This document shows, piece after piece, positions 2,854 through 21,767 of a DNA stretch of 22,725 nucleotides. The notes under the pieces were generated by a model. That model ran no database searches and was not told where the DNA came from. It saw nothing but the letters and a program-made list of their open reading frames with translations. This DNA is from a virus, in the IMG/VR virus record IMGVR_UViG_3300009684_000183, positions 1-22,725 of that record. The stretch is one strand, 5' to 3'. How positions within the stretch are numbered: the stretch's first letter is position 1; the number at the start of each line of letters is the position of its first letter. Position numbers and translations under genes: made by a program.

Positions 2854-3477
2854 ATGGCATACGTTTACAGACATATTAGACTTGATAAAAATGAACCATT
2901 TTATATTGGTATTGGTAGCGATGAACATTATTATAGATCTACTGCTAAAGCTCATAGAAACAAAATATGGAAAGGCATAGTATCACGTACTGAATACAAA
3001 GTTCAAATTATATTTGATAATATTACGTTTGATGAATCCAAAGAAAAAGAAAAAGAATTTATCAGCTTGTATGGAAGAATAAATTTAGGTACTGGTATTT
3101 TATGTAATTTAACAGATGGAGGAGATGGAATAATAGGTCAAGTTTTTACCCAAGAACATAGACAAAAAATATCAGAATCAAACAAAGGAAGAAAGTTATC
3201 TGATGAACATCGTAGAAAACTAAGAGAAAGTGGTAGAGTCTGGGGATTGACAGAAGAACAAAAAAAACATTTAAGTGTAATTCAAAAGGGAATACCTAAA
3301 AATAAAGAAAAAGCTGCAAGAGGACTAACAAGTGGAGTTTCTCGACAAGTTCTTGATTTATATACTGGTATTTTTTATGAAAGCATATTGCAATTATCCC
3401 AATTACATGACATTAATTATCAGACATTATTAAAAAGACTTAGAAGCAAATCAAACAAAAGATACTTAGTAGTATGA
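2854..3477 (+). CDS. Free-standing GIY-YIG homing endonuclease
   Basis: 207 residues. The N-terminus has the GIY-YIG nuclease pattern: V-Y-R at residues 4-6, F-Y-I-G-I-G at 16-21 and an acidic E in K-E-F-I near 68. The segment CNLTDGGDG (84-92) is typical of phage homing endonucleases. Two NUMOD3-like DNA-binding repeats follow (about 97-115 and 115-130, E-H-R-x-K-[IL]-x-E-S), and the C-terminus resembles a NUMOD1 helix-turn-helix. No intron signature surrounds it; it sits between two virion-type genes. Its TGA stop overlaps the next start as ATGA. An AAAGGA stretch 6-11 bases before the ATG is one of the few Shine-Dalgarno-like leaders here. It is probably a selfish gene that cleaves DNA of related phages lacking it. 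Confidence 0.85.
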   Translation: MAYVYRHIRLDKNEPFYIGIGSDEHYYRSTAKAHRNKIWKGIVSRTEYKVQIIFDNITFDESKEKEKEFISLYGRINLGTGILCNLTDGGDGIIGQVFTQEHRQKISESNKGRKLSDEHRRKLRESGRVWGLTEEQKKHLSVIQKGIPKNKEKAARGLTSGVSRQVLDLYTGIFYESILQLSQLHDINYQTLLKRLRSKSNKRYLVV

Positions 3478-3710
3478 TAACTGGATATAAATATACAATC
3501 GAACAAGAAACCATTGCAGCACAAAAGCAATGCGATGCTTTTTATGGCATTCCAAAATCTCCTGAAGATGTAACAACGCATTGGGTTGGTTATAATTTTG
3601 CAGAATTGAATAACCCTCAATTTTATTACATAACATTTGACAAATCACTTTTGCCAATTTTAGGGCAGCCAATTGAATTTGAAATAATACAACCACCATT
3701 TTCATTATAA
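3474..3710 (+). CDS. Small hypothetical protein downstream of tail genes
   Basis: 78 residues, starting at an ATG that overlaps the endonuclease stop (ATGA). The sequence is soluble and aromatic-rich, with no signal peptide or membrane segment. The central part (residues ~34-54: hTHWVGYNFAELNNPQFYYI) suggests a compact folded domain. I do not recognise a family with a known function. The position, between tail fibre-type genes and lysis genes, suggests a minor virion or assembly protein, but that is inference only. Confidence 0.65.
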   Translation: MITGYKYTIEQETIAAQKQCDAFYGIPKSPEDVTTHWVGYNFAELNNPQFYYITFDKSLLPILGQPIEFEIIQPPFSL

Positions 3711-3737
3711 AACAGTTTAAAACATAAAAATATAAAA

Positions 3738-4046
3738 ATGATAAAATTAAACAAACCAAGTTTCATAGCAACAAGCAACGAAACACAGACAAGCACTAAA
3801 GTGCAATTATTAATTGTAAATTACAATGCTTTTTTAGGCAGTAAAGATGTAGATGGGGAACAAGTTCCACAAGGTTATATTCAATCGTTTGTTTATAACG
3901 AAACAATGAATAGTATCATGACGGATACTCAAGAAGATACTAATTTCACGGCAAATATATTAGTAGAATTAACTGATATGTATATTGCTAAATTGCAAGT
4001 ATTAAATCCAAAAATTAAATTTACAAATACCTTATTGTCTGAGTAA
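3738..4046 (+). CDS. Small hypothetical protein
   Basis: 102 residues, ATG start after an A-rich leader (27-base gap). No membrane segments, cysteines or recognisable motifs. The N-terminus has a beta-like stretch (VQLLIVNYNAFLG), and the C-terminal third is probably helical (ILVELTDMYIAKLQVL). Co-directional with the flanking late genes, so probably expressed late. Function unknown. Confidence 0.6.
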   Translation: MIKLNKPSFIATSNETQTSTKVQLLIVNYNAFLGSKDVDGEQVPQGYIQSFVYNETMNSIMTDTQEDTNFTANILVELTDMYIAKLQVLNPKIKFTNTLLSE

Positions 4047-4068
4047 TAACACAATTTAAATTTCTACA

Positions 4069-4476
4069 ATGAAAACATCATCTTTACTTTACCTAACAAC
4101 TACTTTTTTTGCTTTTATTGGAAGCTACTTTATGCACTTAACTGCAGACAATGCAGAACAATATCTAGCCTTAGTAGCTGTTATAAGTATTGATGGACTC
4201 TTTGGTATATGGGGAGGAATTAAAACTGAAGGATTTAAAACTTTTAAAGCTGTTAGAATACTTCAAACGCTTATTGTTTGGATATTTATGCTTACTGGGG
4301 TATTAATGATAGAAAAAGGTTTTCAAGGTACTTCTTGGTTAAGCGAAACAGTTTGTGCTCCTTTTATTCTATTTCAGCTTATGTCTGCTCTTAAAAATGC
4401 AGAAAGAGCTGGCTTAATTAAAAATGAACTTTTAACAATCATCTTAAATAAAATAGATAAACATAAAACTGTATAA
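4069..4476 (+). CDS. Holin-like membrane protein
   Basis: 135 residues with three to four hydrophobic segments: about 6-25, 30-50, 64-84 and 90-105. A short charged C-terminal tail (NKIDKHKTV) is probably cytoplasmic. A glycine-rich D-G-L-F-G-I-W-G-G-I segment between the second and third hydrophobic stretches resembles the phage_holin_4-type families of toxin secretion/lysis holins. It is directly followed by two small membrane-anchored proteins that look like spanins and, two genes later, by an endolysin. A holin forming inner-membrane holes at the end of infection is the best call. The family assignment rests on topology and context more than on a strict motif. Confidence 0.6.
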   Translation: MKTSSLLYLTTTFFAFIGSYFMHLTADNAEQYLALVAVISIDGLFGIWGGIKTEGFKTFKAVRILQTLIVWIFMLTGVLMIEKGFQGTSWLSETVCAPFILFQLMSALKNAERAGLIKNELLTIILNKIDKHKTV

Positions 4477-4490
4477 CATTTATAAAAACT

Positions 4491-4847
4491 ATGATAATTT
4501 TAAAATTTTTAACTACTAAAGTCTATACTAACGTATGGACTATATTATTGATTATAGTCGCTATTATATCAATTAAATACTGTTCAGTTAATAAAACCTC
4601 TATTGAAGAGGAGAAAAGCTCTAAAATCCTTCTAAACCATCTTGATTCTTTAGAAAAAAAAACAAATGTTTTGATTTTTAAAATAGATTCATTAGATTTG
4701 CTCAAGAAACAACAACTAACCCTTTACTATAAAACCAAGTGGAAGTATGACACGATTAAAACTATTATTGACACTATGCCTCCTTTGGATGGCACAAAGT
4801 TGCTACTCTCAAAGTCTAGACAGCTTACCAATCAAGGAATTGAATAA
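4491..4847 (+). CDS. Probable inner-membrane spanin (Rz-like)
   Basis: 118 residues. A single N-terminal membrane segment (about 14-32, WTILLIIVAIISIKYC) is followed by a coiled-coil-prone region (about 38-90) with repeated leucines and alternating charge (HLDSLEKKTNVLIFKIDSL). This N-in, single-pass plus periplasmic coiled-coil layout is that of i-spanins such as lambda Rz. The last 101 bases overlap the start of the next gene in another frame, as in classical Rz/Rz1 pairs. It lies directly behind the holin-like gene. Spanins fuse inner and outer membranes at lysis, as expected for a phage of a Gram-negative host. Confidence 0.5.
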   Translation: MIILKFLTTKVYTNVWTILLIIVAIISIKYCSVNKTSIEEEKSSKILLNHLDSLEKKTNVLIFKIDSLDLLKKQQLTLYYKTKWKYDTIKTIIDTMPPLDGTKLLLSKSRQLTNQGIE

Positions 4848-5094
4848 CGAATTTCTTAAGGGAATTTCAGCTAGAGAAAGATTACAATACTTAAAAAACA
4901 CAGTAAAGTTGGATAGTCTCCAACTTTCTTTGTATAAGGATAGTATTGTTCCTAATCTTAAACTTCAACTAAAAGACTCTAAAAAAGAAATGATTTGCCT
5001 AAATACTGCTATTGAAGATAAAAATTATTTACTTAAAATTTATCGATATACTTGTATTGCTTTCACATTTATAACAATAGGACTACTTTTCTAA
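4747..5094 (+). CDS. Probable outer-membrane spanin partner or second lysis membrane protein
   Basis: 115 residues. The N-terminus is a signal peptide (MTRLKLLLTLCLLWMAQSCY) with a Cys at 19 that could be an imperfect lipobox (A-Q-S-C). The middle is a charged, coiled-coil-prone region with leucine spacing. A hydrophobic C-terminal segment (about 99-115) ends the protein. The start lies inside the preceding gene in another frame (101-base overlap), mirroring the nested Rz/Rz1 arrangement. The terminal membrane segment is not typical of lambda Rz1, so this could instead be a variant u-spanin-like or accessory lysis protein. The ATG at 4747 is preferred because it supplies the full signal peptide. 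Confidence 0.5.
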   Translation: MTRLKLLLTLCLLWMAQSCYSQSLDSLPIKELNNEFLKGISARERLQYLKNTVKLDSLQLSLYKDSIVPNLKLQLKDSKKEMICLNTAIEDKNYLLKIYRYTCIAFTFITIGLLF

Positions 5095-5095
5095 C

Positions 5096-6403
5096 ATGTC
5101 TCCAAAAGAACTAATTATTCGCCATTATCTTCTTAATCCTGAAACAGAAGAAACCGCTTTAAGTATAGCTAATCGCTTTAACTATAGGCTTGAACTTAAT
5201 GATTTACAAAGAGCGAAAGCTGTAAGAGATTTAAAAAGAGTATCTAAGGGAACTCGACATCCTAAAATGGTCTATAAACCTACCATAAAAAATACCAAAG
5301 ACTCTTCTTATAAAGAAAATATAGACAAAGGAACTTTAGAAGTTTCTTCTATACTTTCTGATGAGCCCAGGTCTCCTCAAGAAATTATTGACATTCACAA
5401 AGTAGATGAATCTATTTGGAAACTTTCTCAATATTGGAGTAAAGAAAAATCAAATGGGTGGTTAGTATCTGCTATGTTTGTTCAAAAAAAGACAGGAGAA
5501 CTTACGCATGAAGACTTATTAAATGACCTTTCTACTGTATTAATAACAGATAATATTGTTCCTTACGTAGTAGTACAACAAGAATCAAACAAGAAAGCAT
5601 TATTTGTTTATTTAAGCGATAAACACATAGGAGCTATGACTAAATCAGACGCTATGTATGATAACGTCTATAATAAAGAAGTTTTTAGAGATCGTCTAAC
5701 TCAAGTTTATACTAAGATTCTTGAAACTGTACACCTTGTAGGAGTTTTTGAAGATATTTATATTTGTGATTTAGGAGACTCTATGGATGGATGGAATGGT
5801 TATACTACTAGAGGTGGGCACAAACTTCCACAAAATATGGACAACAAGGAAGCTTTTAATACTTATTTGTTTGAGCATAAACTTTTCTTTGATAATCTTA
5901 TGCGTTCAGGATTTGCAAATCAATATCATGCAGTAATGCAAACAAACGATAATCATAGTTCAGATTACGGATACATTGCTAATCAAGCACTTGGACTTTA
6001 TTTAGAAACTGCGTACCCTGGTATCAAAGTACAATTAATGACTAAATTTTTAGAACATATTAACTATGGATTACACACAATTATACTCACTCATGGAAAA
6101 GATTCAGAAGATCTTAAGCATGGTCTTCCCCTTCAGCTAACTCATAAAGCAGAAAACTTCTTAGAGAAATATATCAATTATCATAAAATTGATACTAATT
6201 ATCCTATACATGTTATTAAAGGAGACCTTCACTCAGAAAGTCAACAAGTCGCTTATCACTTTAGATATCGTAACGTTCTTTCTATGTATGGAGCATCTAA
6301 GTGGATAATGAATAACTTTGGACCTAGTCATGCAGGAGTATCTTTTGACATTTATAACAAGAACTCTAAATCAGTTTATTCGTTTTATCATTTATTTAAC
6401 TAA
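5096..6403 (+). CDS. Calcineurin-like metallophosphoesterase with N-terminal DNA-binding-like region
   Basis: 435 residues. Residues ~170-380 carry the ordered metal-binding motifs of the calcineurin-like phosphoesterase fold: D-x-H (S-D-K-H, D175/H177), G-D-x-x-D (GDSMD, 227-231), an N-x-N-H variant of GNH[DE] (NDNH, 284-287), a lone H (LTHGKD, H333) and G-D-L-H (376-379) in place of GHxH. The first ~60 residues are basic and helical (L-N-D-L-Q-R-A-K-A-V-R-D-L-K-R), possibly a helix-turn-helix. Residues ~105-130 (WKLSQYWSKEKSNGWLVSA) form a linker seen in related phage proteins. It could be a nuclease or phosphatase acting on DNA or nucleotides; the substrate cannot be read from sequence. 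The start is 1 base after the preceding stop. Confidence 0.7.
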   Translation: MSPKELIIRHYLLNPETEETALSIANRFNYRLELNDLQRAKAVRDLKRVSKGTRHPKMVYKPTIKNTKDSSYKENIDKGTLEVSSILSDEPRSPQEIIDIHKVDESIWKLSQYWSKEKSNGWLVSAMFVQKKTGELTHEDLLNDLSTVLITDNIVPYVVVQQESNKKALFVYLSDKHIGAMTKSDAMYDNVYNKEVFRDRLTQVYTKILETVHLVGVFEDIYICDLGDSMDGWNGYTTRGGHKLPQNMDNKEAFNTYLFEHKLFFDNLMRSGFANQYHAVMQTNDNHSSDYGYIANQALGLYLETAYPGIKVQLMTKFLEHINYGLHTIILTHGKDSEDLKHGLPLQLTHKAENFLEKYINYHKIDTNYPIHVIKGDLHSESQQVAYHFRYRNVLSMYGASKWIMNNFGPSHAGVSFDIYNKNSKSVYSFYHLFN

Positions 6404-6414
6404 GAAATTAAATT

Positions 6415-6621
6415 ATGGATATTTTACATTCAATTAATGAATTCTATTTAGAAAGCCGTAAAGAAGGGACAGGAGTCTATCCTAATGCTATTTTAATGAC
6501 TTCTAATCAACTTTCAGACTATACTAGGGAATTACCCTCAGGAATAAAAATAGAGGCTTTAGAAGGCCTAACTATCATTTTAACAGATTATATAGAGAAG
6601 CCTAAACTACTTAAACTTTAA
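6415..6621 (+). CDS. Small hypothetical protein
   Basis: 68 residues, ATG 11 bases after the metallophosphoesterase stop, in the same late transcription unit. No membrane segment or cysteine. The pattern (NAILMTSNQL...GIKIEALEGLTIILTDYI) suggests a small alpha/beta fold. I cannot assign a family. Its position between the phosphoesterase and the endolysin is the only functional hint. Confidence 0.6.
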   Translation: MDILHSINEFYLESRKEGTGVYPNAILMTSNQLSDYTRELPSGIKIEALEGLTIILTDYIEKPKLLKL

Positions 6622-6635
6622 ACTTTACAAATTTT

Positions 6636-7256
6636 ATGAAATACATACAAGATTTTTTAAACAAACACGGTTACCAATTAAACCCCGACGGAGTTATTGG
6701 ACAATTTACTTATGATGCAGCTGAGAATTACGTAAGAAAAGCTTGTTTAGCAAATAAGTTTAGAGTTCCTACTAAAGGAATTGTCTATGTAAGAACAGAT
6801 GAAAAGTTAACAAATACATTTGATGATTTTGGATGCTTGTTTACTAATGGAAAACTTACTAAAATTTTTAGAGCTTCGACAACAGCAGGTAAGTATTATG
6901 TTCAAAATCCAATTACTTACGGAGGTATTACAGGAACAGCTATTACAGTAGCTCCTCAACAGATGAGAGACTCTCATGTGTTTAAAACTTCAGGAAATTG
7001 GAAGTCTTTATGGTTAGGTGCTCCTTATTTTCAACAAGTACTTGCTCTTAGAATTTATAGAGATGGAAACAAAGACTCTAATATAGATAAAGAAATTACT
7101 ACAACTGGTCTATTTGGTATTAACTTACATAGAGCAGGTTTAGGATCTATTGTAGATCGTTGGAGTGCAGGATGTAATGTATGTCCTGATAAAGAATGGT
7201 TTGAAGTTGTAAGTTATTTTACAGCGGGTGAAAGAATAGATTATACCATAATTTAA
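6636..7256 (+). CDS. Putative endolysin: peptidoglycan-binding region plus YkuD-like catalytic domain
   Basis: 206 residues. The first ~35 residues (IQDFLNKHGYQLNPDGVIGQFTYDAAENYV) match a PG_binding_1 half-repeat, with the usual D-G-x-x-G-x-x-T turn. The C-terminal half contains GINLHRAG (161-168), a spacer and WSAGC (176-180). That is H then S-x-G-C in the order of the L,D-transpeptidase/YkuD catalytic motif (HG...SHGC), with H165 and C180 as likely active residues. There is no signal peptide, so release would depend on the nearby holin-like protein. In phages this domain most likely cuts peptidoglycan peptide bridges rather than making cross-links. It lies 14 bases after the preceding gene, in the lysis region. 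Confidence 0.65.
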   Translation: MKYIQDFLNKHGYQLNPDGVIGQFTYDAAENYVRKACLANKFRVPTKGIVYVRTDEKLTNTFDDFGCLFTNGKLTKIFRASTTAGKYYVQNPITYGGITGTAITVAPQQMRDSHVFKTSGNWKSLWLGAPYFQQVLALRIYRDGNKDSNIDKEITTTGLFGINLHRAGLGSIVDRWSAGCNVCPDKEWFEVVSYFTAGERIDYTII

Positions 7257-7260
7257 CTTT

Positions 7261-7608
7261 ATGGAACTTGCTAAAGAAGATATTTTTAAATCTAAAAGAA
7301 AACCTAAAAGCCCTATTTCTTTTAAACTTACTTTAAACGAAGAACAAAAAGAAGCTAAAAGAGTTATTTTAAATAATCCTATTACTGTTCTTTTAGGTTC
7401 AGCAGGATCAGGAAAGACGCTTACTGCAACTAATGTTGCATTAGATCAATTATTCAACAGAGAAGTAGATAAGATAGTTATTACTAGACCTACAGTAACT
7501 GAAGAAGACTTAGGTTTTCTTCCTGGAGGTATAAGTGAAAAAATGGATCCTTGGCTACAACCTATCTATCAAAACTTCTACGCTCTTTACGGCAAAGAAA
7601 AGATATAA
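7261..7608 (+). CDS. phoH: PhoH-like ATPase, N-terminal part ended by an in-frame TAA
   Basis: 115 residues. It carries Walker A GSAGSGKT (46-53) and the PhoH-typical stretch TRPTV...LGFLPGG (75-90), followed by EKMDPW. The frame stops at TAA 7606-7608, but the same frame continues without interruption to 7941 and supplies Walker B and the rest of the PhoH domain. Reading through codon 116 would give a normal 226-residue PhoH-like protein. The residue expected there in the K-E-K-I-x-K-E-I-A-E-G context is Glu, so a single GAA-to-TAA change explains the break. It is either a real nonsense mutation, an assembly error or, less likely, readthrough. PhoH-like proteins are P-loop NTPases common in phages, possibly RNA-directed. 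Confidence 0.75.
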   Translation: MELAKEDIFKSKRKPKSPISFKLTLNEEQKEAKRVILNNPITVLLGSAGSGKTLTATNVALDQLFNREVDKIVITRPTVTEEDLGFLPGGISEKMDPWLQPIYQNFYALYGKEKI

Positions 7609-7644
7609 AAAGAAATAGCTGAAGGTAACATTGAGATTCTTCCT

Positions 7645-7941
7645 ATGAGTTATATAAGAGGTATTACTTTTGTTAATACTTTTGTTATAGCAGATGAAGT
7701 CCAAAACTTAACTCATACTCAAATGGAAGCTTTATTAGGTCGCCTAGGACAAAATTCTAAAATGGTACTTTGCGGAGACGTAAGTCAAATAGATTTACGC
7801 AATAAAAAGAATAGTGGTCTTAGTTTCTTACGAAGAGTAGAAGAACAAGTTGAAGGATTTAAGATAATTACTTTAAAACAAAATCATCGGCATTCTATAG
7901 TCCAACCTATACTGGATGTCTATAAGGTGTACGCAGATTAA
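7645..7941 (+). CDS. phoH: PhoH-like ATPase, C-terminal part after the in-frame stop
   Basis: This is the same reading frame as the preceding PhoH segment. The first in-frame ATG after the stop is at 7645, and the coding signal already resumes at 7609 (KEIAEGNIEILP). It holds Walker B FVIADEVQN (residues 13-21) and the downstream PhoH signature GRLGQNSKMVLCGDVSQIDL. If translated alone it would lack the nucleotide-binding P-loop, so it should not be a functional ATPase without the N-terminal part. No leader typical of the other genes precedes the 7645 ATG, so independent initiation is not well supported. The frame ends 9 bases before a bidirectional terminator stem. Confidence 0.7.
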   Translation: MSYIRGITFVNTFVIADEVQNLTHTQMEALLGRLGQNSKMVLCGDVSQIDLRNKKNSGLSFLRRVEEQVEGFKIITLKQNHRHSIVQPILDVYKVYAD

Positions 7942-7950
7942 AAAGAAAAA

Positions 7951-7975
7951 GGGAGATTATTAGTCTCCCTTTTTT
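7951..7975. terminator. Bidirectional intrinsic terminator between convergent arms
   Basis: Stem GGGAGA (7951-7956) with TCTCCC (7964-7969), 7-base loop, then TTTTTT on the plus strand. On the minus strand the same stem is followed by TTTTCTTTTT. It lies between the end of the plus-strand late arm and the end of the minus-strand arm, and should stop transcription from both. Confidence 0.85.
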
Positions 7976-7995
7976 GTTGATTGGTTTTTTCTAAA

Positions 7996-8394
7996 TTAGC
8001 GTTTGCTAGCAATATAATCTCTCTTACGATTAAGAAGTTTTAGTAACTCCATCTTGTTATGTGTTTCAGCCCAAGCAATTTCTTGGTCTAAATCATTTAA
8101 GATAGAATTAATAGATTCATCCCACATTTCTTCTTCTGTAGGCTCAACTACTTTAGCTACTCTTGTTTTAATAGTTACAGTAGTATCTTCTGTTTCAAAA
8201 GTTCTAGTAATAACTTTACAGTCGTGATACTCTTCTACTTTAGTGTCTACTAAGTCTGAGATACTAAAAGCTAAAGCATGAGGTAAGTCATCAAAGTTGT
8301 CTTTAGCAGGTTCTTTTTTATCTTCTAGTTTGCTTTCAAGAGCTTCCAAGAATTTAATAAAGTCTTCAATATTACCTTTTTTTACGCTTTCCAT
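7996..8394 (-). CDS. Hypothetical protein, last gene of the minus-strand deaminase unit
   Basis: 132 residues, rich in Glu and Lys. The N-terminal ~30 residues (NIEDFIKFLEALESKLEDK) are predicted helical and coiled-coil-like. A central beta-type stretch (HDCKVITRTFETEDTTVTIKTRVAKV) is followed by a charged helical C-terminus. No family recognised. It overlaps the upstream gene by 13 bases, indicating translational coupling, and ends just before the terminator at 7951-7975. Confidence 0.6.
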   Translation of the reverse strand: MESVKKGNIEDFIKFLEALESKLEDKKEPAKDNFDDLPHALAFSISDLVDTKVEEYHDCKVITRTFETEDTTVTIKTRVAKVVEPTEEEMWDESINSILNDLDQEIAWAETHNKMELLKLLNRKRDYIASKR

Positions 8395-8711
8395 GTAGGA
8401 CCTCCAGTCAATTTAAAGAATTCGTTAATTTCAGACAATACAGTCAACTCAATAAGAATAGGTTCGCTTGTAATTTCAAACTTAGAAACCTTTACAGGGT
8501 GTTTTTGTTTAGTTACAGGGTCTACTTTGTACTGATAGTCTGTAGGAGTCATTTTGTCTACAGACTGTTTAAGTATAATAACCAACTTCTTGTCAGAAGG
8601 GTAGGTTAAAAGAACAGAATCTAAATCAAAAGAATAACCTGTTTCAATAGTCATGTCGACCTCGTCTTCATGTTGTGTTTTTGTTACTTGTGTATAATAA
8701 AATTGTTTCAT
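8382..8711 (-). CDS. Hypothetical protein
   Basis: 109 residues, beta-rich, with alternating hydrophobic and charged residues. Contains YSFDLDSVLLTYPSDKKLVI followed by ILKQSVDK, then a late segment with PVKVSKFEITSEPILIELTV. No cysteines, signal peptide or membrane segment. I do not recognise a family. It is 6 bases downstream of its upstream neighbour and overlaps the downstream gene by 13 bases, so it is part of the same polycistronic unit as the GroES-like and deaminase genes. Confidence 0.6.
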   Translation of the reverse strand: MKQFYYTQVTKTQHEDEVDMTIETGYSFDLDSVLLTYPSDKKLVIILKQSVDKMTPTDYQYKVDPVTKQKHPVKVSKFEITSEPILIELTVLSEINEFFKLTGGPTWKA

Positions 8712-9145: not shown

Positions 9146-9430
9146 TTACCAAATAATGTCGATATCCTGTTCTCGAATTAATAATTTAGGCTCACCTTCA
9201 ATCTCAATAACTTGAGCTTGTTGCAAGTAATAAGGAGATACATAAACAAAGTCACCTTCATTTAAGTTTTCTACTGTACTTCCTACAGCAAATACTTTAA
9301 TTTGAGTGAATTTTTTAAGTTGTTCTTCATCGAATGTTTTTTTGTCTTCTGGACTTAATTCGATTACTGGTTCTTTGATGTCAGGCTGATCAAGTAACAC
9401 TCGACTGCCTCTTAGTTTAAATGTTGACAT
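9146..9430 (-). CDS. GroES-like co-chaperonin
   Basis: 94 residues, close to the length of GroES (about 97). It starts with LRGSRVLLDQP, like the first strand of Cpn10. Residues ~43-70 follow the family pattern: I-K-V-F-A-V-G-S, then N-L-N-E-G-D-F-V-Y-V-S-P, matching 'GkVvAVG...vkvGDkVlf'. The end, EPKLLIREQDIDIIW, matches 'YLilreeDILavi'. The region where GroES has its mobile loop is replaced by an acidic/basic insert (residues ~17-41, E-L-S-P-E-D-K-K-T-F). Phage co-chaperonins such as T4 gp31 replace host GroES for capsid protein folding, which would be the expected role. It is 8 bases downstream of the deaminase gene. Confidence 0.6.
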   Translation of the reverse strand: MSTFKLRGSRVLLDQPDIKEPVIELSPEDKKTFDEEQLKKFTQIKVFAVGSTVENLNEGDFVYVSPYYLQQAQVIEIEGEPKLLIREQDIDIIW

Positions 9431-16597: not shown

Positions 16598-16813
16598 TTA
16601 TTGTGAATCGTCTTTTTCGATTTTTCGTTTGCTTTCTTCTTTTAAGAAGTCACTAAACGCTTCAATCTCTGCAAGTCTGCCTTTTATTTCACAGTAATCA
16701 AACTCTGTCTCTTTAGGCTCTTGTCTTAAACGAGTTATTCTTGATTGTAAATATTCAATCATTTTACTCTTTAAGTCATAGTATCCTAGTTTTTCATATT
16801 CTAAGTATGTCAT
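16598..16813 (-). CDS. Small coiled-coil protein
   Basis: 71 residues, highly charged: basic first half (YLQSRITRLRQEPKE) and acidic second half ending EESKRKIEKDDSQ. Heptad-like spacing over residues ~15-65 suggests a coiled coil. Its ATG overlaps the UNG stop by 4 bases. No family recognised. Confidence 0.6.
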   Translation of the reverse strand: MTYLEYEKLGYYDLKSKMIEYLQSRITRLRQEPKETEFDYCEIKGRLAEIEAFSDFLKEESKRKIEKDDSQ

Positions 16814-17544
16814 TGGTCTATTTTAAAATCTTTTAAGTGATCTACTGTATGAGGTAATTCTAACCAATCTATAGTCTCTCCGTTATAAAGTTGAAGTATG
16901 CGATTAATCTCATTGAAATGATCGCATTCCCAAATTCCTCCTGTATAAGTAGCAGAAGCAGGATGACTACATTCTAAAATATACTGGCTTTCAGGATTAA
17001 GATACTTTTTATACTTTTGAGCATCTTTACCCCACAAAACAAATATATGTCCAGGAAGCTCGTTTAAAGCCTCTAAAACAGCCTTAGTAAAGAAGTCCCA
17101 CTGTTTTAAGTGTGAACCTGCTTTGCCTTTCTCGACTGTTAGAGCACTGTTTAACATTAGAACACCTTGCTTAGTCCAATTCTCTATGTTAAGATCTGTA
17201 GGAAATGCTAAATCATCAGGATAGCAAGTCTCTTTAATCTTTTGATAAATAATCCTAAGAGAAGGAGGAACAAAATCTCTGTTTTTTGGAGCAAATGAAA
17301 GTCCGCATGCAACAGGTTCTCCTTTATATTCAGTAAAGTAAGGATCCATCGAAACAATAGTTACACGAGTCTTCATATAAGGAGTAAGTTGAAATGCTCT
17401 AAAAATCTCTTCTCTTAAAGGAAAGATTTGTTTAGTCTTTCTTTCTTCTGCTATAAACTTAGCAAGTTCCATAAACTCAGGAGACTCAATGGTTGGTTGT
17501 AGTCTTACATACCAATCATCAGGAATGTTAATTAATTTTGTCAT
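16810..17544 (-). CDS. ung: Uracil-DNA glycosylase with divergent active-site motifs
   Basis: 244 residues. The water-activating motif, usually GQDPYH, reads SMDPYF (65-70) and keeps the catalytic D67 but has M for Q and F for H. The N-binding motif LLLN reads L-M-L-N (N132) and the HPSPLS motif reads H-P-A-S-A-T-Y (H194 kept). The GLSFAP (81-86) and VLWG (169-172) signatures are typical of family 1 UNG. So the fold and the Asp/His pair are preserved, while uracil-contact residues differ. Uracil removal, or a changed base preference, is plausible. It is translationally coupled to its neighbours through overlaps on both sides. Confidence 0.75.
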   Translation of the reverse strand: MTKLINIPDDWYVRLQPTIESPEFMELAKFIAEERKTKQIFPLREEIFRAFQLTPYMKTRVTIVSMDPYFTEYKGEPVACGLSFAPKNRDFVPPSLRIIYQKIKETCYPDDLAFPTDLNIENWTKQGVLMLNSALTVEKGKAGSHLKQWDFFTKAVLEALNELPGHIFVLWGKDAQKYKKYLNPESQYILECSHPASATYTGGIWECDHFNEINRILQLYNGETIDWLELPHTVDHLKDFKIDQ

Positions 17545-20342: not shown

Positions 20343-20350
20343 CATTGATA

Positions 20351-20369
20351 CCTTAAGGTTTCCCGAAAG
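20351..20369 (-). repeat. Short repeat flanking the intron endonuclease, downstream copy
   Basis: On the minus strand CTTTCGGGAAACC..., nearly identical to CTTTCGGGGAAACG... at 21120-21101. The two copies flank the endonuclease gene inside the intron (one G missing). Confidence 0.7.
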
Positions 20370-20371
20370 GA

Positions 20372-21058
20372 TTAGACTATATCTTGTAATTCATTTGCAT
20401 TTTTATATTTCCAACCAAAGCCTCCAGCTGTCTTTCCTCTTCCAACACAACAATTTTGGATAGCTCCTCTATGTGTGTTGTTTGCTAAAGCAACATGTTG
20501 TAAAGAAAGATACTCTTCTATAAAATCTCCTTGTTTAGAGAATTTTAAGACAGGTTTATATCTTTTTGCTTTGGTTTCTTGAGATTGTTTTTTACCGAGG
20601 TTAATTTGTCGAAGTTTCTCTTTTGTAATTTCCGACAATTTTATACCAATTCTTGATTCGCTCATTTTCTTCTTAGAAACACTTGTATGTTTAAATCCTG
20701 CCATTTTTTCACGCATTTTTTGTTTGCGTTCTTTACTATAGATTTGATTTTTATTTCCATCTCCTCCATCAGTCATGTTAAGCAGTTTATAATTCCAAGC
20801 TTTAAATTGTGCAATCCAGTATTGTTCAGTAATTTCCCAAATAGTTTCATCTATTTCTTCAATAGCCTCAATAATAGGAATTAAATCATTTTTATATAAT
20901 TGTTTTATCCAATTACACTTGTGACTTGTTTCTCTATCTCGTATAGCACTCATGATATGGCCATCAAGCCTTCTTTGTAAAGTTTGTACAGTTTTTCCAA
21001 TGTACCTTATCTCTAAAGTAGTTGGGTCTGATAACGTATAAATTTTTACTTTTCTCAT
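20372..21058 (-). CDS. Intron-encoded GIY-YIG homing endonuclease
   Basis: 228 residues. GIY-YIG core: K-I-Y (5-7), R-Y-I-G-K-T (18-23), R-R (29-30) and E79 in E-Q-Y-W-I. The segment N-M-T-D-G-G-D-G-N is typical of the phage families. NUMOD3-like repeats follow (about 107-160). The last ~45 residues (K-P-V-L-K-F-S...G-G-F-G-W-K-Y) match a NUMOD1 domain, which recognises DNA. It lies wholly in the intron and should cut an intronless Sak4-like gene near the splice junction, driving intron homing. It has a promoter of its own (21063-21093), only 4 bases before the ATG, so the transcript is probably nearly leaderless. Confidence 0.9.
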   Translation of the reverse strand: MRKVKIYTLSDPTTLEIRYIGKTVQTLQRRLDGHIMSAIRDRETSHKCNWIKQLYKNDLIPIIEAIEEIDETIWEITEQYWIAQFKAWNYKLLNMTDGGDGNKNQIYSKERKQKMREKMAGFKHTSVSKKKMSESRIGIKLSEITKEKLRQINLGKKQSQETKAKRYKPVLKFSKQGDFIEEYLSLQHVALANNTHRGAIQNCCVGRGKTAGGFGWKYKNANELQDIV

Positions 21059-21062
21059 GATT

Positions 21063-21093
21063 CAAATATACTAAAACTATTGGTAAAATGCAA
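21063..21093 (-). promoter_or_regulatory. Bacteroidota-type promoter inside the intron
   Basis: On the minus strand, TTG (21093-21091), a 20-base spacer, then TATATTTG (21070-21063), matching TTG-N20-TAnnTTTG. The endonuclease ATG begins 4 bases further on, at 21058. It would let the homing endonuclease be made independently of splicing. Confidence 0.75.
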
Positions 21094-21100
21094 GTAATTA

Positions 21101-21120
21101 CCTCACCGTTTCCCCGAAAG
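21101..21120 (-). repeat. Short repeat flanking the intron endonuclease, upstream copy
   Basis: On the minus strand CTTTCGGGGAAACG, partner of the repeat at 20351-20369. It also forms part of a P9-like stem CGAGAGTTT...AAACTTTCG. Confidence 0.7.
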
Positions 21121-21311
21121 TTTTAAACTCTCGAGTACTCCCCTTCACGGGGATAGTCGTTGAACGTTCTTCCCTATTTTCATAGTAGGAAGCTTCGCTG
21201 CTGATTACCCAATCCTAGTCTCTTTCACTTTGCTGAAGTCATTACTGCTTCAGGGAGTGTACTAGGCTCTAAGGGCGTTCCAGTCAATTAGATGAGTACA
21301 GGCAAATGTTC

Positions 21312-21767
21312 ACCTATGGTTTTGATTTTCTGACCTACAATCTTACCTTCGTCTTCAACAGTCTCTGAATGAGATAGATAGAATACTTTTAAGTCAGATC
21401 TTAGTCTACGAGCTGTAGTTAACATAGTTGTTACATCTTGAGCTAATAGAGAAAACTTTGTAAAGCCTGTCTCTGTTGCTTTCTTTACCATACCAAAAGC
21501 CATAGAATAGATAGCATCATCCATTACAATGTTTTTGATTTGTGGAGCACCTGTACTGATTTGTTGTAACAAAGTAGTAATTTGCTTGATGTCGTCTACC
21601 TCGAAATAATTCTTTTTTTCTGCTGTGTAGAGTTTGTCTGCTCCCCTAAATGGAAGTTCTTTACGAGCTACATTAATGATGAATGTTTCATCAGGGTTAA
21701 GCGTCCTAATTGACGTTGATTTACCAGTTCCCGAAGGACCTACGATTGCGATTAATTTACTTGACAT
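21312..21767 (-). CDS. Sak4-like recombination ATPase, 5' exon
   Basis: 152 codons before the splice site. Walker A G-P-S-G-T-G-K-S (10-17), Walker B I-K-N-I-V-M-D-D (77-84), and a later S-H-S-E region (132-135) typical of RecA-like P-loop proteins of phages. The exon ends T-I-G (150-152), directly before the conserved K-M-L-D-N-Q supplied by the 3' exon. Without splicing the frame runs 7 codons into the intron (EHLPVLI) to a TAA, giving a truncated protein. Sak4-type ATPases act with SSB in single-strand annealing and strand exchange, consistent with neighbours. Leader is A-rich (AAAAAAAAAGAAAT). Confidence 0.85.

Follow-up and report, generated by a model that had tools for sequence, protein, structure and literature searches.

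A PhoH-like gene of a phage contig is interrupted by a single in-frame TAA codon, which we read, with a probability of about 0.53, as a very recent and private one-base nonsense change in an accessory phage phoH. The window, i.e. the whole stretch of DNA that was analysed, is a 22,725-base (22.7-kb) IMG/VR virus record with a G+C content of about 28-37%, and represents a fragment of an incomplete genome. The in-frame TAA within phoH is confirmed as a real feature of this record and is more than chance, because the DNA is collinear with that of relatives and because no clean nonsense codon was found in 904 gene comparisons. The best interpretation is an ordinary recent nonsense mutation or a sequencing error, rather than a novel mode of decoding.

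The interrupted phoH frame

The features of the phoH region and its gene setting are as follows:

5' of and up to phoH, + strand: a 607-aa ORF, a holin-like gene and several unassigned genes
7261-7941, + strand: phoH-like frame of 226 codons plus stop, broken at codon 116 (ORF list, profile match)
7261-7605, + strand: N-terminal 115 codons including the P-loop, positions 6-96 of the PF02562 profile (profile search)
7396-7419, + strand: Walker A motif or P-loop, GSAGSGKT (read from the sequence; the GxAGSGKT columns are invariant in the alignment)
7606-7608, + strand: in-frame TAA at codon 116, a sense codon in 38 of 38 relatives spanning the site (codon comparison)
7609-7938, + strand: C-terminal part of the phoH frame
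7645-7941, + strand: 98-aa ORF with an internal ATG start, PF02562 positions 111-205 (ORF list, profile search)
7684-7698, + strand: Walker B motif, VIADE (read from the sequence; the D-E columns are invariant in the alignment)
7951-7969, + strand: terminator-like hairpin GGGAGA...TCTCCC followed by a T run (seen by eye in the sequence)
mostly - strand: DNA-metabolism genes, namely family A DNA polymerase, uracil-DNA glycosylase superfamily, Toprim protein, deoxycytidylate deaminase family and AAA_24 ATPase

We take GSAGSGKT to be the Walker A motif (P-loop) and VIADE to be Walker B. The TAA at 7606-7608 is in frame with both the ATG at 7261 and the terminal TAA at 7939-7941. When the frame is read through with X at the stop, it gives one PF02562 match over residues 26-222 with 208.3 bits, far above the curated cut-off of 27 bits for this family. 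This agrees with the preliminary description, which had proposed one continuous PhoH frame with a TAA between Walker A and Walker B. Taken alone, the two halves match adjoining parts of the profile (positions 6-96 with 84.8 bits and 111-205 with 96.6 bits), and a profile search of the window record itself flags one TAA within the PhoH match. The two Walker motifs are not encoded in a single uninterrupted protein, as the TAA at codon 116 lies between them. The hairpin at 7951-7969 sits between phoH and the convergent gene at 7996-8394.

The window DNA is collinear on both sides of the TAA with that of the relative L002 (IMGVR_UViG_3300036945_000648), at 80% over window positions 4630-8126. A frameshift or a chimeric join is excluded by this collinearity and by the identical reading frame on both sides of the stop. 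An intron or intein at the TAA is likewise discarded: there is no insertion, and the codons align without gaps against those of relatives.

Codon 116 and constraint in related phages

Codon 116 was compared among 40 viral-contig relatives, 38 of which span the site (L040 and L041 begin downstream of it). Its counterpart is Asp in 23 relatives, Gln in 5, Arg in 4, Lys in 4 and Glu in 2, and a stop in none. GAA, one base from TAA, is confined to L002 and L003 (IMGVR_UViG_3300016476_000671), which are the nearest collinear relatives. The earlier expectation of a Glu at this codon thus holds for these two, whereas the site varies over the 38 relatives, with Asp in the majority. At the level of whole records, 39 of the 51 searched carry a PF02562 match, and the window alone has a stop in its main PhoH match (0 of the 38 other matching records). 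G038, the record of locus L039, shows in addition a second match that is reduced to its 3' part and includes one TAA; the insertion in L039 described below explains it. Since neither the 38 relatives nor the 38 other PhoH records have the stop, it is private to the window record in these comparisons; conservation of the TAA in relatives, the finding that was said to refute the initial interpretation, was looked for and none of the 38 shares it. A search of viral contigs with a 31-base pattern, N standing at the changed base, gave no match, and very near records may be absent from the set searched. L047, the nearest record by polymerase, stops short of phoH. The phoH frame finds 3,243 matching records in the phage collection, a figure that counts matches alone.

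There is no clear sign of relaxation or decay of phoH on either side of the stop. The dN/dS ratio of the window versus L002 is 0.071 upstream of the TAA and 0.096 downstream, and versus L003 it is 0.127 upstream and 0.056 downstream. The ratio of synonymous to nonsynonymous private changes is 17:4 upstream and 13:8 downstream for the window, 16:6 and 13:9 for L002, and 16:16 and 24:8 for L003. Private nonsynonymous changes of the window are thus more numerous in the downstream than in the upstream part, yet not above those of L002. An old pseudogene is ruled out by the similar ratios against L002 (0.096 vs 0.071) and by a frame that, past codon 116, has neither an indel nor a second stop before 7939. 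If the stop is real, a rough Poisson bound, which depends on the assumed background, would date it to approximately the final 10-20% of the branch leading to the window. The absence of decay and a stop private to the window fit the initial proposal of a recent loss or an error.

The downstream frame is intact and constrained, which would also fit occasional or conditional read-through of the stop to give a putative full-length PhoH; relatives have Asp, Gln, Arg, Lys or Glu at this position, so that nearly any inserted residue might be tolerated. We nevertheless regard this as extremely improbable, as a recent mutation accounts for the intact frame without it, and the stop is found in no relative. 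In addition, TAA ends 18 of the 27 window genes counted, in line with its description as the normal stop across the window, and the TAAA context is the commonest terminal tetranucleotide there (9 of 27). No tRNA was detected by a scan of the window, a fragment of an incomplete genome, and no suppressor tRNA in six related records searched, where G005 alone gave matches, to tRNA-Ser, tRNA-Gln (ttg) and one of uncertain type. Of the signs of programmed read-through, a conserved stop is thus seen in 0 of 38 relatives, and neither a suppressor tRNA nor a recoded stop in the window fragment. A conserved stop or general recoding can be dismissed, since the TAA is absent from every relative compared and is the predominant terminator of the window genes. 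The earlier suggestion of a conditionally read-through gene is therefore not supported, the stop being unconserved, in the commonest terminator context, and unaccompanied by a suppressor tRNA in the window and the six records. It would take quite exceptional circumstances for the TAA to be real, fixed and read through in the host, with PhoH produced at a low level or conditionally from a variable, tolerant site.

A split PhoH, made of separately translated half-proteins of 115 and 98 aa, could be imagined because an internal ATG at 7645, 36 bases past the TAA, opens the 98-aa ORF. Re-initiation there is unsupported because this Met belongs to the intact protein in near relatives, where it is a sense codon of PMSYIRG and needs no start function. 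No relative is split, and the residues between the stop and ATG 7645 would be lost. We consider such a split very improbable.

Nonsense change or consensus error in an accessory gene

The private stop, the intact frame, the lack of decay and the frequent absence of phoH in this phage group together lead to two readings, a recent nonsense change or a consensus error. The second, in which the TAA is a sequencing or assembly error in the consensus of a metagenome contig and the phage has an intact phoH, is a serious possibility that we hold with less than even confidence. One base only is concerned, without decay on either side, all compared relatives are intact, and the record is an IMG/VR virus contig. 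Against an error, no other interrupted frame was found among the window genes with orthologues, save the gene split by an intron-like insertion, and a generally poor contig is excluded on this ground.

The frequency of nonsense codons was surveyed by comparing 21 window genes with 98 non-repeated loci, i.e. 904 gene-by-locus pairs and about 194,000 aligned codons. An internal stop was flagged in 4 of the 904 alignments, but closer examination showed no clean nonsense codon within a conserved gene in any of them. Those of L074, L082 and L065 were set aside because the alignment extends 5' of the gene or crosses unaligned insertions close to its start, and that of L086 because it reflects a rearranged polymerase end. 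The corresponding 95% upper bound on clean nonsense is about 0.33% per gene for 904 comparisons that are non-independent, many contigs being near-copies. About 5.7% of single-base changes in the window genes would make a stop. The zero count indicates that errors of this kind are uncommon in the collection. Broken phoH copies are rare too, since every other phoH gene among the relatives has an open frame. The rarity of the window stop argues a little against a routine error, and equally against a routine loss.

A match to phoH is absent from 39 of the 42 loci that hold the flanking genes, defined as the neighbour at 5096-6403 plus either the one at 8382-8711 or the one at 9146-9430. Contig ends truncate some of the 42, and the majority come from the polymerase search. 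Among 12 larger related records to which the polymerase led, none has a PF02562 match anywhere in the sequence available. With phoH missing from 39 of 42 loci and from 12 of 12 larger records, the gene is accessory, or dispensable, in this phage group and its loss should be tolerated. Among near relatives with phoH, the three largest (G003, 74 kb; G005, 105 kb; G009, 97 kb) carry a single copy each. A second phoH may lie elsewhere in the incomplete genome of the window. In L006, the locus of G005, phoH has the opposite orientation to that of the window relative to the same neighbours, which suggests an inversion or a separate gain.

A true nonsense change is slightly more likely than a consensus error because no other interrupted frame hints at a poor contig and because the gene seems dispensable, and we infer that the change at base 7606 is real. 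Under a true nonsense change, translation from 7261 would end after 115 residues. The resulting piece would keep the P-loop, without Walker B, the NHRH stretch and the remaining C-terminal half. It would probably be inactive, with no ATPase, an assumption that we make from what is known of the PhoH family, and no working PhoH would be expected from the window copy. Nothing would rescue the frame, and the stop could mark the usual beginning of gene loss, or else be a segregating variant that happened to enter the assembly. Whether one accessory phage gene is at the first step of loss or one contig carries an error matters little. The comparison does show that, in a single group of phages, phoH can be present, absent or invaded by homing elements, so that little can be concluded when an individual contig lacks it or has it broken.

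Homing elements and known systems

Homing elements are common in this phage group and are more notable than the phoH stop. The window itself has the following:

20343-21312, - strand: insertion of about 970 bp that splits the AAA_24 ATPase gene
20372-21058: GIY-YIG ORF inside this insertion

The insertion gives a partial match to the group I intron family RF00028 with 38.9 bits and an E value of 3.6e-8, under the gathering score of 50. In L047, a relative that is 88-95% identical, the AAA_24 gene is uninterrupted at the insertion point. The phoH gene of L003 contains an insertion that matches LAGLIDADG_3 and Hom_end.

Several further observations were made on such elements. Directly 5' of its intact AAA_24 gene, L047 has a free-standing 301-aa ORF (828-1733), the start of which is GIY-YIG-like by eye and which has no counterpart in the window. 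The window ORF at 2854-3477 (+ strand) is homing-endonuclease-like, with a weak NUMOD3 match below the cut-off and 49.6% identity to an ORF of L045 over its first 109 residues. The L003 insertion (3636-4883) is in frame and intein-like; it ends ...VTHN before a Ser, and its first residue seems to be Pro in place of Cys or Ser, with a Cys close to the C-terminal end (VQCLL). These features are reminiscent of class 3 inteins.

In L039 (4617-6091), the 3' end of phoH is of an unusual type. It is succeeded by an ORF that matches NUMOD3 (5272-5952; a GIY-YIG-like insertion) and by what remains of an ordinary phoH 3' end, at 5930-6091. This looks like the insertion of a free-standing homing gene that replaced the end of its target phoH. 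Judged by the C-terminus, the phoH genes of L008, L009 and L011 share the unusual 3'-end type of L039. In L064 (3302-5086) and L044 (6980-8754), about 1 kb interrupts the counterpart of the window uracil-DNA glycosylase gene (16810-17544), perhaps as another intron or homing insertion. In L086 (10001-11896), the end of the polymerase gene runs into sequence that recurs at the end of the neighbouring gene; this is a local rearrangement or misassembly.

A literature search retrieved no paper on a premature stop codon of phoH in a phage genome. phoH is presented as a marker gene of marine phages in the title of a paper cited in PMC3853055, and the intein described in PMC3853055 sits in the terminase, not in phoH. 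Among known genes, immuto26A_208 of Flavobacterium phage vB_FspM_immuto_2-6A (PhoH-like ATPase, PF02562) shows 63.8% amino acid identity over 97% of the window frame. Both are a PhoH domain from end to end; the immuto gene is intact, whereas the window has one TAA. L002 has an intact phoH with 90% protein identity over the whole frame, and L003 shows 92% protein identity to the window phoH in the C-terminal part. Both have a neighbourhood collinear with the window at about 70-80% DNA identity and carry GAA where the window has TAA; L003 alone differs further from the window by a 416-aa insertion in phoH after GFLPG. With ordinary point nonsense mutations, i.e. first-step pseudogenes, the window phoH has the same single changed base, the same private occurrence and the same lack of decay, and no feature distinguishes it from them.
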